Below are positions 18,121-54,807 of a stretch of DNA of 64,000 nucleotides, one piece after another. The notes beneath the pieces are model-generated. The model did no database searches, had not been told where the DNA came from, and worked only from the letters and a program-made list of their open reading frames with translations. The first letter of the stretch is position 1; each line of letters opens with the position of its first letter. Origin of the DNA: an uncultured Bacteroidia bacterium (GTDB lineage Bacteria > Bacteroidota > Bacteroidia > Bacteroidales > UBA932); the NCBI GenBank assembly GCA_902779765.1, contig CACZCQ010000007.1, positions 50,138 through 114,137 on the forward strand, written 5' to 3'. The position numbers and the translations under genes are program-made.

Positions 18121-19086
18121 CTATTTCCTGTATAATGCAAATATCGCCGAGCCCGATCCGGACATGGCGGCATAGACTGCGCCGCTGTCGTAAAGGGACT
18201 GCTTGACGGCAGCCAATTCAGGATGCTTCCTGAAAACCGTAGCCTCGAAGTCATTCACCACCAATTCCTTCCATTCCTCCACCGGCTGCAATAAAGCATT
18301 CTTCAATCCAGTCGGAGGGACTACTGATGCCTTGGACGCCTCGCTTCGCTCGGCCCCACCGCTCGCTTCACTTCGTTCCGCTCCGGTCCCCCCTCTTAAC
18401 GTGCCGAGGGTGGCAGTGTCCCGGGCATCAGTAGTCCCTTCGACAGAATCTCGGGGAATGATACCATCGTAAGCCTCCTTGGTGGAGACGGATATGCCCT
18501 CGGGGACGAGGACCTTGACCTCGTAGCCGGAAAGGTCCAGATCGAAGGGTTCCAGGATTTCCCCGCGGCCTGTTCCGAACATCGGCCTGTTCCAGATGAA
18601 GAAAGCGCAGTCGCTGCCGAGCCTGGAAGCATATTCGGAAAGCTTCCCGTCCGAAAGTCCGAGGCAGCAAAGCTCATTGAGAGCCTTGAGCGTGAATGCC
18701 GCATCAGCCGATCCACCTCCGAGTCCTGCTCCCACCGGAGCCTTCTTTTCAAGGAATATCTTGACGGGAGGCAATTTGAAATCCTCGGCAAGCAGGTAGT
18801 ATGCTTTGGCACAGAGATCCTTTAGCGGATCCCAGTCTATCCCCTCTTCCCGGGCGATTGTGACCATCAGTTTCCCGTCCTCGGAAATGCCCTGGACCGG
18901 ATTATCACCGTATCTGGCAAAAAGGGCCGATGAAGTACGGCTGTAGTCGTCGCCGGAGATGACTTCCAGAGTGTCGCCGAACTCATGGCACGGGACGAAG
19001 AGCGTCTCGATGTCATGGTATCCGTCGGGCCGCTTGCGGATCACGTTCAGCCCGAAGTTCAGCTTCACATTTGTCCGGAGGATCAT
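18121..19086 (-). CDS. ispE: 4-diphosphocytidyl-2-C-methyl-D-erythritol kinase with an inserted repeat element
   Basis: Phosphorylates CDP-methylerythritol in the non-mevalonate isoprenoid pathway (cytoplasm). GHMP-kinase motifs: KLNFGLNVIRKRPDGYHDIE, the ATP loop PVGAGLGGGSADAAF, and the C-terminal SGSGSAIFAL. The protein is 321 residues, about 45 longer than usual. The excess is residues about 215-259, between GIIPRDSVEG and NALLQPVEEWKEL, where family members have a short loop. That stretch (LGTLRGGTGAERSEASGG and similar) is encoded by repeat copy A and is Gly/Ser/Glu/Arg-rich. All catalytic motifs lie outside it, so the enzyme may still work. The start overlaps the sufD stop by 4 bases. 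Confidence 0.93.
   Translation of the reverse strand: MILRTNVKLNFGLNVIRKRPDGYHDIETLFVPCHEFGDTLEVISGDDYSRTSSALFARYGDNPVQGISEDGKLMVTIAREEGIDWDPLKDLCAKAYYLLAEDFKLPPVKIFLEKKAPVGAGLGGGSADAAFTLKALNELCCLGLSDGKLSEYASRLGSDCAFFIWNRPMFGTGRGEILEPFDLDLSGYEVKVLVPEGISVSTKEAYDGIIPRDSVEGTTDARDTATLGTLRGGTGAERSEASGGAERSEASKASVVPPTGLKNALLQPVEEWKELVVNDFEATVFRKHPELAAVKQSLYDSGAVYAAMSGSGSAIFALYRK
18311..18444 (-). repeat. In-frame palindromic coding element, copy A (in ispE)
   Basis: 134 bp. On the minus strand: a 21-bp arm (18444-18424), 3-base spacer, 87-bp core (18420-18334), 2-base spacer, and the arm's inverted copy (18331-18311, 20/21 complementary). The core matches the core of copy B in queH at 83 of 87 positions by eye. 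Beyond the arms the complementarity stops at once on both sides. The core has one open frame on each strand; the one used encodes DTATLGTLRGGTGAERSEAS and a second AERSEAS unit. The arms bear no resemblance to those of copy B. Confidence 0.9.
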
Positions 19087-40207: not shown

Positions 40208-40975
40208 ATGGTAATGGAGCATTTCGAGGGATGTACTTTCAAGCCGGAGATTCCGGAAGGCTGCGATCTTTCAAAGGACCGCATCCTGCTCCATTGCTGC
40301 TGCGGACCGTGCTCCACGGCCATCCTGGAATGGATGGTTACGGAGGGACTCCGTCCCGGGGTTTTCTTCAGCAACTCCAACATAGTCCCATTCGAAGAAT
40401 ATGTGAAACGACGCGACGAACTCGCCCGCTACGCCTCCTCCTTCGGACTGGAAGTCATCGATGATGAATATGACCACGAGGCCTGGCTGGAATATGTCAG
40501 GAGCCGGTCCCTGAATGAGATCGAAGGACCCGAACGCGGTCCCCGCTGCCAGGCATGCTTCGAGTTCAGGCTCCGCCGGGCTGCTGAATATGCCGTCTCG
40601 CACGGCTATTCCATTCTCACGACGACTCTCGCCTCTTCCCGCTGGAAAGACCTCCGCCAGGTCAATGACGCCGGATATCATGCCGTTAGTTCCGTGTCCG
40701 GAGAGGGTATACCCCCAGAGGACACTGCCACCCTCGGCACGTTAAGAGGGGGAACCGGAGCGGAACGCAGTGAAGCGAGCGGTGGGGTCGAGCGAAGCGA
40801 GACGTCCTTCGGGGGTATACCCTCTCCGGACCTGGCAAATGGACAAAGACTGCTTTGGTGGCCGCAGAACTGGCGGAAGGGCGGACTGCAAGAGCGCAGG
40901 AACTTCCTGATCAAGTCCTGCGCCCTCTATAACCAAACCTGGTGCGGCTGCGAATTCAGCCACAGGATTATTTGA
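40208..40975 (+). CDS. queH: Epoxyqueuosine reductase QueH with an inserted repeat element
   Basis: 255 residues from ATG 40208 (a second ATG at 40214). QueH reduces epoxyqueuosine to queuosine in tRNA using Fe-S and metal sites. Conserved cysteines: LLHCCCGPCST (Cys 30-32 and 35), RCQACFEFRL and WCGCEFSH; also TTTLASSRWKDLRQVNDAG and NWRKGGLQERR. Between DAGYHAVSS and LLWWPQNWRKGG, where family members have a short linker, lie about 45 extra residues (about 164-208), encoded by repeat copy B and containing the same GTGAERSEASGG sequence as IspE. All cysteines lie outside it, so activity may be kept. Confidence 0.93.
   Translation: MVMEHFEGCTFKPEIPEGCDLSKDRILLHCCCGPCSTAILEWMVTEGLRPGVFFSNSNIVPFEEYVKRRDELARYASSFGLEVIDDEYDHEAWLEYVRSRSLNEIEGPERGPRCQACFEFRLRRAAEYAVSHGYSILTTTLASSRWKDLRQVNDAGYHAVSSVSGEGIPPEDTATLGTLRGGTGAERSEASGGVERSETSFGGIPSPDLANGQRLLWWPQNWRKGGLQERRNFLIKSCALYNQTWCGCEFSHRII
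40696..40831 (+). repeat. In-frame palindromic coding element, copy B (in queH)
   Basis: 136 bp: arm 40696-40716, 4-base spacer, 87-bp core 40721-40807, 3-base spacer, inverted arm 40811-40831. The arms are perfectly complementary over 21 bp and the match stops at the next base on both sides, the same arm length as copy A. The arm sequence (beginning GTCCGGAGAGGG) is unrelated to copy A's apart from the first three bases. The core is read in the same frame as in ispE, oriented with the host gene in both cases. Within it, AERSEAS/VERSETS is an imperfect 24-base direct duplication. Confidence 0.9.
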
Positions 40976-52159: not shown

Positions 52160-53521
52160 TTATCCGATAAGACCGGAGATGAATATAGCCGCTATGGTGA
52201 TCGGAGTCACATATTTGATGAGGAAATAGAGTACCGGGAATATCTTGCCGTTGAGCTTCAGCAGCCCCCCGTTCGTAAGTTCATCCCGGACGGATTCCTT
52301 ATCCATCTTCCACCCGACGAATATGCTGAACAACAACGCTCCAAGGGTCATCAGATAATTGGAGCAGAGCTTGTCGCAGAAATTGAATACGGTGTTGCCT
52401 GCCAACTTGAATCCAGCCAGCGGTCCGAAAGACAGGGAGCAGAGGACTCCTATTACCAGACAGATGGCAAATATGCCGAGAGTGGCCTTCCCTCTCGAAA
52501 CCTTCTTCTCCTCAACCATATAAGCTACTCCGACTTCCATCATGGATATGGATGATGTCAAGGCGGCCACCAGGATGGTAAGGAAGAACAGTATCGCGAT
52601 GACGGCACTGATTATCCGGCCGCCGGCACCCATCTTGGCAAAGATGAATGGAAGGGTTTCGAAGACAAGCCCGGGACCGGCCGCCGGTGCTATCCCTGCG
52701 GCAAAGACAGCCGGCATGACCGCAAAACCGGCCAGGATTGCGAAGAGCATGTCGAACATGGCCGTTCCGGCTCCCGAAGCGATCAGGTCCTCTTCTTTCC
52801 TGACGTAGGAAGAATAGATCAGCATGGTTCCCACACCGAGGGAAAGCGAGAAGAAGCTTTGTCCGAGGGCGGCGGAAAAGGCATCTCCTGTCAGCTTGGA
52901 GAAATCAGGCCTGACCAGGTACCTGACCCCTTCAGAAGATCCCGGGAGGGTTATGGAATATGCCGCTATCACCAGGATCAGCACGAAGAGGACCGGCATC
53001 GAAATCTTGCTGAACCTCTCTATACCTTTCTTGACCCCGGAGAATATGATGAACGCCGTCAATCCAAGGAAAGTCAGGGTGCAGGCGATCGGTCCCCATG
53101 CGGAAGAAGAGAACTCGGAGAACATACCCGTCACCGCTTCCGCGTTCTCAGGCCTGAAACTCAAGGTCAAGGCCTTGAACAGGAAGGCGAGGGACCATCC
53201 TCCTACCACGCTGTAATATGACAGGATGATCACCGGAGTAACGATGGTCAGGAGTCCGAGCCACTTCCAGCCGGTCCCGGGAGCAAGGGTTCCCATCGCC
53301 CCGAAAGTATTCTGATGGGTCCTCCTGCCGATGACGGCTTCTGAAAGGAGGATCGGCAGGGAAAGCATGAAACAACAGACGATGTATATCAGTATGAACG
53401 CAGCTCCGCCATATTCCCCGACAATGTAGGGGAAGCGCCAGATGTTGCCCAGGCCTATGGCCGAACCGGCCATGGCCATGATAACCGCCGCGCGGCTGCC
53501 GAAATGCTCCCTGTTCGTCAT
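52160..53521 (-). CDS. Neurotransmitter:sodium symporter family transporter, second of two
   Basis: 453 residues, about 11-12 helices. NSS/SNF proteins import amino acids or amines with Na+. Seen: the family start AMAGSAIGLGNIWRFPYIVG (unwound helix 1), LLSEAVIGRRTHQN, and the helix 6 region SLSLGVGTMLIYSSYVRKEE. Overlaps the stop of the preceding paralogue by 4 bases. Substrate cannot be told from the sequence. Confidence 0.94.
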   Translation of the reverse strand: MTNREHFGSRAAVIMAMAGSAIGLGNIWRFPYIVGEYGGAAFILIYIVCCFMLSLPILLSEAVIGRRTHQNTFGAMGTLAPGTGWKWLGLLTIVTPVIILSYYSVVGGWSLAFLFKALTLSFRPENAEAVTGMFSEFSSSAWGPIACTLTFLGLTAFIIFSGVKKGIERFSKISMPVLFVLILVIAAYSITLPGSSEGVRYLVRPDFSKLTGDAFSAALGQSFFSLSLGVGTMLIYSSYVRKEEDLIASGAGTAMFDMLFAILAGFAVMPAVFAAGIAPAAGPGLVFETLPFIFAKMGAGGRIISAVIAILFFLTILVAALTSSISMMEVGVAYMVEEKKVSRGKATLGIFAICLVIGVLCSLSFGPLAGFKLAGNTVFNFCDKLCSNYLMTLGALLFSIFVGWKMDKESVRDELTNGGLLKLNGKIFPVLYFLIKYVTPITIAAIFISGLIG

Positions 53522-54807
53522 AATACCAGATTGGTTATGAATATAGTGATGACCGTAATCGGTGCGACATAACGTACCAGGAAAAAGAACACCTCGAATA
53601 TTCCGTTGTTCAGTTTTCCGTGGTTGGTAATCTCATCACGCACATCCTCCTTCTTCATCTTCCAACCCACGAAAAGGACGACCAGCAACACCCCGGCCGT
53701 CAGGAGGAAATTGGAAGAGAACGCGTCTACCTTGCCGAACACCTCGATGGAGAATACGCTGGCCAGGCCGAGAAGCCAGGTGACGGCGAAAATCACCAGA
53801 CAGGCCGTGGACCTTTTGAAATTCTTCTCCTCGACCAGATATGCGACACCGACCTCGATGAGCGAAATGCTGGAAGTCATGGCAGCGACTATCACGGAAA
53901 AGAAGAAAAGGGCGGCGACACAGGTGGCAAGGAAAGGAGAGGAGGCGCCCATCCCGGTAAAAACGTGAGGAAGGGTCTGGTAAACCAGTCCGGGACCGCT
54001 GCTCGGGGCTATGCCGGCGGAGAAAACGGCCGGCATGATGGCAAAGCCTGCAAGGACGGAGAACATCAGTGCGGCAAGGACGGTGCCTACACCCGAAGCC
54101 ACCAGATTCTCATCCTTGTGAATATAGGAGGAATAGGTGATCACAATTCCCATTCCCAGGGACATGGCATAAAAACTCTGGCCGAGAGCGAAGGCGAATG
54201 TCCTGCCGGTAATCTTGGAAAAATCCGGCTTGACAAGGTAGTCTACTCCCTTTTCCGCCCCGGGCATATTCAAGGCATAAACCATGATGAGCACGATCAG
54301 GACGAACAGGAGAGGAATTGAAATCTTGTTGAATTTTTCTATTCCCGCCTTCACTCCGAAAGCCACGATCCCGGCCGACAGGCCCAGGAATATGGTATTG
54401 AAAAGTAGCGGAGTCCAGCCGGAAGGACGGAACTCTCCGAAATCCAGGGAGAAGGATTTCAGGAAGTACTCTATGGACCACCCTCCTACAATGCTGTAAT
54501 AGGAAACGATGATGGTCGGGGTTATGACACTCAGGTAGCCAAGCACCGTCCAAAAGCTCCGCGGAGCGAGCTGGTTCATCGCTCCGATGGCATTGGAATG
54601 TGTCCTCCTGCCGATGACAGCCTCGGTCAGGAATATCGGGAAGGACAGTATGAAGGAGCATAGGATATAGACCAGGATGAATGCCGCACCTCCATACTCT
54701 CCAACCATATAGGGGAAGCGCCAGATGTTGCCGAGGCCTATGGCAGATCCGGCCATGGCCATGATGACGGCAATCCGTCCGCCGAAATGTTCTCTTTTTG
54801 TCGTCAT
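53518..54807 (-). CDS. Neurotransmitter:sodium symporter family transporter, first of two
   Basis: 429 residues, same family and clearly paralogous to the next gene: AMAGSAIGLGNIWRFPYMVG, FLTEAVIGRRTHSN, MSLGMGIVITYSSYIHKDEN. The tandem pair probably arose by duplication, and the divergence in the middle suggests different substrates or hetero-assembly. Starts 7 bases after the DHFR stop, inside a long leftward run of genes. Confidence 0.94.
   Translation of the reverse strand: MTTKREHFGGRIAVIMAMAGSAIGLGNIWRFPYMVGEYGGAAFILVYILCSFILSFPIFLTEAVIGRRTHSNAIGAMNQLAPRSFWTVLGYLSVITPTIIVSYYSIVGGWSIEYFLKSFSLDFGEFRPSGWTPLLFNTIFLGLSAGIVAFGVKAGIEKFNKISIPLLFVLIVLIMVYALNMPGAEKGVDYLVKPDFSKITGRTFAFALGQSFYAMSLGMGIVITYSSYIHKDENLVASGVGTVLAALMFSVLAGFAIMPAVFSAGIAPSSGPGLVYQTLPHVFTGMGASSPFLATCVAALFFFSVIVAAMTSSISLIEVGVAYLVEEKNFKRSTACLVIFAVTWLLGLASVFSIEVFGKVDAFSSNFLLTAGVLLVVLFVGWKMKKEDVRDEITNHGKLNNGIFEVFFFLVRYVAPITVITIFITNLVL

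Follow-up and report, generated by a model that had tools for sequence, protein, structure and literature searches.

A palindrome of 134 bp (18311-18444) lay in frame within the coding sequence of ispE, and a second copy of the same element lay within queH, in the window (the whole stretch of 64,000 nucleotides analysed here, from an uncultured Bacteroidia bacterium; features in Table 1). Pfam recognised the N and C domains of GHMP kinases in the ispE ORF, one on each side of the element, and the QueH domain in the queH ORF. The arms of the ispE element were complementary at 20 of 21 positions, and the repeat search extended the pair to 32 nt (84%); the queH arms were complementary at 21 of 21 positions and unrelated in sequence to those of ispE. 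Between the arms, the cores of ispE (18334-18421) and queH (40720-40807) were inverted copies in the window, 95% identical over 88 nt. The in-frame palindrome in ispE, the core common to both genes and the differing arms, self-complementary in each pair, had been described in an earlier note made from the sequence alone, and all three were borne out. Folded as RNA, as that note had suggested, the element was stabler than its shuffles (-70.1 vs. a mean of -47.8, sd 3.64, 200 shuffles; z -6.13), and this value, together with the 19 places in the genome described below, excludes a chance origin.

The IspE loop bearing the element was 43 residues longer than in an element-free relative (69 vs. 26 in G079), and the QueH loop 49 residues longer (82 vs. 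33 in G017), where the earlier note had put the addition to IspE at about 45 residues. These gains, of about 129 and 147 nt, approach the full elements with both arms (134 and 136 nt respectively), so that neither arm appears to be native. The element was missing from queH in G017 and G065, and several relatives within the genus had a short ispE loop without it; the outcome that would have spoken for a native loop, the same stretch at the same place in ispE orthologues, did not occur in this comparison within the genus.

Two side observations were made. The queH loop of two other genomes carried other repeat-like inserts rich in GGCCGG (L082 in G072, L091 in G008), and this variable loop may be an insertion hot spot. 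Elsewhere in the window, two 300-nt stretches (53156-53455 and 54439-54738), 1283 bp apart, were 70% identical and are perhaps tandem paralogous genes.

Table 1. Features of the two element copies in the window, and locus lists for the second palindromic family and the RNA-modifying hosts.
Feature	Position or locus	Strand	Remark
ispE coding sequence, 321 aa, element in frame	18121-19086	-	Pfam GHMP_kinases_N at residues 92-165, GHMP_kinases_C at 269-319
Stem 5' arm on coding strand, private to site	18424-18444	-	20/21 complementary to 18311-18331
Inner stem 5' side, GGAC	18418-18421	-	Pairs with GTCC 18334-18337
Pseudoknot stem 1 5' side, ACTGCC	18412-18417	-	Two variable pairs 96.5% Watson-Crick across copies
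Pseudoknot loop segment CCCTC	18406-18410	-	Pairs with GAGGG 18391-18395
Pseudoknot stem 1 3' side, GGCACGT	18399-18405	-	Helix counted in covariation analysis
Pseudoknot stem 2 3' side, GAGGG	18391-18395	-	Loop-to-tract pattern count
Variable hairpin P3, ACCG...CGGT	18358-18387	-	Covariation helix; sequence and length vary among copies
Variable hairpin P4, GCC..GGC with tandem G.A mismatches	18338-18354	-	Covariation helix
Inner stem 3' side, GTCC	18334-18337	-	Read from sequence
Stem 3' arm, private to site	18311-18331	-	Read from sequence
queH coding sequence, 255 aa, second copy	40208-40975	+	Pfam
Second element copy, in queH	40696-40831	+	Same head, unrelated arms (40696-40716, 40811-40831)
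Second palindromic family	L325, L328, L339, L209, L296, L307, L053, L069		
RNA-modifying hosts	L002, L005, L015, L129, L169, window 40208-40975		

Distribution of the family and its host genes

All or part of the core was found by blastn with the ispE element at 19 places in the 2.48 Mb genome (itself included), and a covariance model of the head built from 51 sequences (R1) located 20 copies there. Extending the search to related genomes, as the earlier note had proposed, gave the R1 head in 49 of the 61 genomes of the genus (own genome included), with 0 to 37 copies in each. Of 198 genomes drawn from across the order, 3 had a match to R1 at an E-value of 1e-6; besides the own genome, these belonged to one other genus of the same family and to one other family. 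One per-genome search scored 40 candidates for each genome, and the lack of a match in it does not mean absence. The head pattern was present in at least 118 stretches of bacterial genome contigs and, among the matches listed, the loci fetched were titled Bacteroidales, Bacteroidia or Rikenellaceae, many of them from ruminant gut. Plasmid and phage collections gave no match at an E-value of 1e-5; three matches in viral contigs, where the rest of the element was absent from the adjoining sequence, look like chance. Elements were approximately 110-150 bp long, with a conserved head of approximately 60-90 nt, and as palindromes of 100-150 bp repeated across a genome they resemble the palindromic elements of Rickettsia (RPE). 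Two genomes, G087 and G088, were 97% identical at one locus, yet the flanks of 14 G088 elements gave only two matches in G087; this pattern suggests a misbinned contig, and the two were dropped as a close pair for comparison.

A mechanical ORF test placed 74 of 140 copies inside long ORFs, the other 66 being intergenic or uncertain. The core was in the sense of the gene in 43 of the 74 and in the opposite sense in 31; the common orientation reported for ispE and queH was therefore correct for these two genes but not in general. Ten hand-chosen ORFs spanning an element were identified as ksgA/rsmA, an rsmF-like gene, an argD-like gene, 2-oxoacid dehydrogenase E2, purD, an RlmB-like methylase, GH92, GH3, truB and trmO. 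As in RPE-like repeats, in-frame copies in conserved genes were found alongside intergenic ones. RNA-modifying enzymes made up 6 of the 12 identified hosts (ksgA, rsmF-like, RlmB-like, truB, trmO and queH) in this small, hand-chosen sample, and this share may reflect chance or tolerance. The ispE element probably belongs to a family of short, non-autonomous mobile palindromes whose copies come mainly from a single large genus of Bacteroidales.

A candidate for the mover was sought among Y1 transposases (Y1_Tnp, PF01797; matches at an E-value of 0.001 in the same 61 genomes as the R1 survey). The domain was found in 43 of 49 element-bearing and 3 of 12 element-free genomes (Fisher p 4.5e-5) and, among the 25 genomes at least 90% complete, in all 15 with at least five copies vs. 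4 of the other 10 (p 0.0012), although the genomes of one genus are not independent. A RAYT-type Y1 transposase that acts on single-stranded hairpins and moves a REP-like element would fit this association as well as the bias of arm mismatches to one strand described below. However, Y1_Tnp was absent from six element-bearing genomes, e.g. G014 (14 copies) and G031 (6 copies), both incomplete; at a completeness of 95% or more, G022 and G030 had 2 and 1 copies without it. The element was present in only one of 20 fetched Y1 gene neighbourhoods (L352), where the gene has AT-rich hairpins of its own; relatives of the L352 protein were not found in the element-rich genomes G016 and G027, and the element lacks the GTAG/CGTC end tag. 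Such a mover is thus considered unlikely, and the association is a lead only. At L352 (2429-3394), a Y1 transposase gene of the genome of the window, the hairpins were of the AAAATGCGTAG..CTACGCATTTT type and lay on both sides of the gene; they are likely the REP-like repeats of the Y1 gene itself.

Arms and head of the element

The arms flanking the copies of the own genome were mutually complementary and, by eye, site-specific in nearly all. Long complementary arms (score of at least 30) were present in 177 of 196 distinct copies. Among genome-contig copies, 119 of 122 had enough flank to be measured, and the complementarity score exceeded 20 in 117 of these, the two failures being a copy that is truncated and another that lies at the end of a contig; for 605 positions drawn at random from the same loci the median was 13, with 49, 30, 28, 25 and 25 as the five best. 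The number of matched positions ranged from about 12 to 41 per copy, so that arms ending at exactly 21 bp, as had been noted for ispE and queH, are not a general rule. A logo of 82 arms showed a strong inner AAACC/GGTTT, a weak base bias to approximately 21-23 nt and little beyond, with neither a conserved tetranucleotide nor a GTAG/CGTC tag at the arm ends. The identical termini of a MITE were not common to all copies, and inspection by eye of sites where the element is present or missing, few of them clean empty sites, showed no direct target-site duplication. The proposal that coding palindromes form one family whose arms are mostly specific to the site, unlike a MITE with shared ends, is in this way supported by copies genome- and genus-wide, and identical arms in all copies, the outcome that would have contradicted it, did not occur.

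Identical heads of 59-70 nt can stand on unrelated outer arms. In 60 pairs of copies with unlike flanks and at most two head differences (two of them orthologous, L052/L307 and L219/L308), 52 pairs shared six or fewer inner bases of the left arm, 23 of them exactly three. Longer stretches were also seen: L007 and L008 of the own genome had 14 arm bases in common and then nothing, and some subfamilies, e.g. L125/L139, shared up to about 20 nt, so that part of the data is explained by arms that were inherited and then changed with compensation. Conversion between loci might account for the near-identical heads. At orthologous sites, the 24 pairs with homologous arms in the same orientation had 461 unchanged arm positions, 37 changed on both sides with pairing kept, 27 changed on one side and 10 changed on both sides without pairing; compensated changes thus made up half of all changed positions (37 of 74). 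The arms of L113/L272 and L136/L208 were unchanged though the flanks differed by 10-13%, which makes fast drift a poor explanation; the arms would be better explained if stems arose anew at insertion or if old palindromes exchanged their heads.

An ordinary old MITE, with terminal repeats that drifted apart under compensation and no new stem at insertion, would agree with the weak composition common to the arms, with the compensated half of the changed positions and with the 20 nt or so common to some copies, but not with identical heads on unrelated outer arms or with arms that stayed constant while their flanks diverged. We give this reading, like that of a Y1 mover, a small chance. Two further candidates were rejected: insertion into terminators, as some intergenic arms were terminator-like, yet the lean to T on the left and to A on the right outside the arms is the opposite of a terminator when read in the orientation of the head; and equal lengths of shared arm on both sides as a sign of head swapping, which are a consequence of self-complementarity.

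Mismatches within the arms were strand-biased (G.T 72 vs. A.C 39, p 0.002; G.A 87 vs. T.C 2, the G.A count being partly inherited within subfamilies), which points to one folded strand under selection rather than to the sole action of template switching. Covariation in the head indicated an H-type pseudoknot and additional helices. In an alignment of 51 copies (A1), in which the stem base, pseudoknot stem 1 and two hairpins were counted, 98.9% of the cells were paired (84.8% when shuffled, 36-59% when slid) and double changes numbered 152 vs. 38 in shuffles; pairs with a double change (9 vs. 7.8) and further pair types (21 vs. 22.6) showed no excess over shuffles. Pseudoknot stem 2 (CCCTC/GAGGG, loop to tract) was invariant in A1. 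Over the fetched loci, with some copies counted more than once, the loop was complementary to the tract in 278 of 282 pattern matches (TC:GA 262, GT:AC 11, GC:GC 4, AC:GT 1; 4 not complementary), and the two further variable pairs of stem 1 comprised four pair types. In the RNAalifold structure used in R1, the CCCTC/GAGGG helix takes the place of pseudoknot stem 1; this model served only to locate copies, and the structure was counted apart. One divergent subfamily (L332, G086:C149) had a pseudoknot loop CCCGT pairing with ACGGG and a longer stem 1.

These features would suit a functional structured RNA spread by duplication, either a ribozyme or a cis-regulator, whose core is conserved while compensatory selection acts on a variable basal stem: there was covariation in several helices and in the pseudoknot, the mismatches favoured G.T over A.C and G.A over T.C, and folding was stable. 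Its orientation to the host gene was nevertheless mixed (43 vs. 31, n=74) and differed between related species at the same site, in-frame copies lay within many unrelated enzymes, the copy number varied from 0 to 37 per genome inside one genus, and Rfam 15 had no family for the window copy, with only weak chance-like scores, or for seven sampled loci. This explanation is improbable. The idea of a selected RNA stem around a fixed core may hold for the head, given the covariation and the strand-biased mismatches; since copies lie in both orientations to their genes and flip, the element is unlikely to act within the mRNA of its host gene. Stem changes that compensate each other are commonly taken as proof of RNA function; here they also occurred in coding copies that are in frame, in both orientations, and this calls for caution in drawing that inference.

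Orthologous sites and inversion of the head

All fetched copies that fitted the head pattern were compared where both flanks matched, giving 95 orthologous pairs that share members and are not independent. The arms were homologous in 36 pairs (24 in the same orientation, 12 flipped), unaligned in 56 (25 same, 31 flipped) and partially aligned in 3. With homologous arms, 1 of 10 pairs was flipped at a flank identity of at least 88%, 6 of 13 at 80-88% and 5 of 13 below 80%; with unaligned arms the corresponding values were 5 of 5, 8 of 17 and 18 of 34. Unaligned orthologous arms may result from re-insertion, replacement or fast divergence, and the flipped state of all five such pairs at 88% or more is not predicted by the mechanism proposed below.

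The clearest flip was that of L118 with respect to L136 and L208, in which flanks and outer arms were alike, the head and the inner-arm mismatches were inverted as a block, and one arm position had a compensated change. The same was seen for L297 and L305, where the head and the inner-arm mismatches were inverted together between similar flanks and outer arms. This second pair comes from G017 and G086, two related species with flank matches of about 85-96%, in which L297/L305 and L321/L338 were flipped with recognisable arms, other loci were flipped with unaligned arms and others had the same orientation. At ispE, the own genome and G086 agreed, and G072 was flipped with homologous arms; G017 and L119 carried another type of arms and were flipped with respect to each other, L213 had a third type, and G065 retained half an element. 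We infer insertion, flip and excision events here from single assemblies of the species concerned; homogenised arms and inverted spacers, the pattern expected of template switching, were present between assemblies.

Invertons of gut bacteria lie between inverted repeats, and a site-specific recombinase acting on the arms as inverted sites and flipping the head, for phase variation or recoding, would account for heads found in both orientations at orthologous sites, between species and not within one population, including genes with a frame open both ways; but the arms have little in common beyond the inner AAACC/GGTTT adjoining the head and their internal dyad is weak (mean 2.87 vs. 2.54 shuffled), so that no common recombinase site was seen and arms as two-fold recombinase sites were rejected, and one flip in ten pairs with homologous arms at a flank identity of at least 88% is slow for a switch, which makes this the least probable of the explanations considered.

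In the comparison of G017 and G086, the element was missing from one of the two species at six sites, where the ancestral state is uncertain. Neither arm was present in the element-free relative at L290/L324, and L304/L329 and L308/L330, weakly aligned, had no clear matching arm at the element-free site; one of the mechanisms suggested earlier, in which the insertion makes an inverted copy of the flank, found no support at these element-free sites. Outer pieces of the arms were retained at L298/L326 and L314/L331, which look like deletions, and the element-free site of L299/L327 had an imperfect 12-bp hairpin resembling the outer arms that could be a relic or an insertion target.

A second palindromic family, with a head around TTAGGCCGTACTCAGCCGCAGC...GCGGCCGGG, also had site-specific arms and coding copies (15 distinct occurrences in the fetched loci), so that palindromes with private arms extend beyond one sequence family. 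It was present in a different ispE loop of G017, G065 and G086, and at three sites (L295/L325, L303/L328 and L283/L339) another palindromic family, with site-specific arms of its own, stood in the related species where the first species had the ispE-type element. Such occupation of one site by different palindromic families lies outside every step of the mechanism described next.

Proposed mechanism and known systems

Taken together, the copies likely form a mobile family in which the palindrome itself drives the upkeep of the arms and the inversion of the head. The moving unit would be the head with a few inner pairs of the stem, and a fresh stem would be formed or captured at each insertion. 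Template switching of the DNA polymerase between the arms would then keep them complementary and invert the head. Within genes, only inserts in frame, free of stops and in a tolerant loop would persist, which would account for the extra peptide in IspE and QueH. That stems arise anew at each insertion, by whatever route, is a conjecture with somewhat less in its favour than against it; that a mobile pseudoknotted head makes or captures its complementary stem at each landing site, by hairpin-primed or hairpin-templated synthesis at the target, is put forward more tentatively.

Arm changes were often paired and heads were flipped, and as these are the two published marks of template switching, this process is proposed for the upkeep. 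Upkeep and inversion can be explained by template switching during replication; the candidate mover and the origin of the stems fall outside that account. Hairpin-templated synthesis, the second mechanism of the earlier note, is consequently the best fit for the upkeep and leaves the origin of the stem aside, and the interpretation given in that note was, as a whole, partly supported.

If such a head does make or capture its stem at each landing site, this would be a mode of DNA transposition that yields a site-specific palindrome, and later flips would recode the host protein from the other strand. The copies show that conserved enzymes of gut bacteria carry inserted peptides which inversion can rewrite. 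With about 200 sampled copies of one head on many stems, the origin of stems, inversion by template switching and arm conversion could be measured in bacteria.

A dispersed family of palindromes with a pseudoknotted head and private stems was not found described in the literature searched, mostly without subscription papers. The nearest in behaviour are the palindromic elements of Rickettsia and Wolbachia (RPE/WPE), repeats of 100-150 bp that are intergenic or in frame in conserved genes, with peptides in solvent-exposed parts of the protein and with orthologues that may hold different RPE groups close together (PMC3767692, PMC2229807). They belong to a different phylum, were compared by description only and, in the parts of those accounts available, are mentioned without site-specific arms, a pseudoknotted head or flipped orthologues.

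Y1 transposases are believed to mobilise the short palindromes known as REPs, some of which are intragenic (PMC3733652); REPs are 20-40 bp long with a GTAG/CGTC tag and family-specific stems, whereas the ispE element is about 134 bp long, has mostly private stems and has no such tag. Invertible stretches are reported to be common in gut bacteria (PMC11892184). The ispE-type element differs from these invertons in its dispersed common head and in that no common recombinase site was seen.

When replication switches template between inverted repeats, the arms become homogenised and the spacer is inverted, in coding sequences as well (PMC8604942); template switching also creates and maintains hairpins (PMC8794818). 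As far as the consulted sections of these papers go, they concern individual repeats, whereas the Bacteroidales copies form a dispersed family and have a single conserved head in common. In the mitochondria of Nematomorpha, genes contain perfect inverted repeats, many of them species-specific, for which repeat conversion by template switching has been proposed (PMC6649704); those arms encode conserved native protein and a shared mobile head is not mentioned in the portion of the paper seen, and the Bacteroidales family differs in both respects. Palindromes inserted in genes are therefore known, and the new twist is a shared head on stems private to each site, flipped between species.
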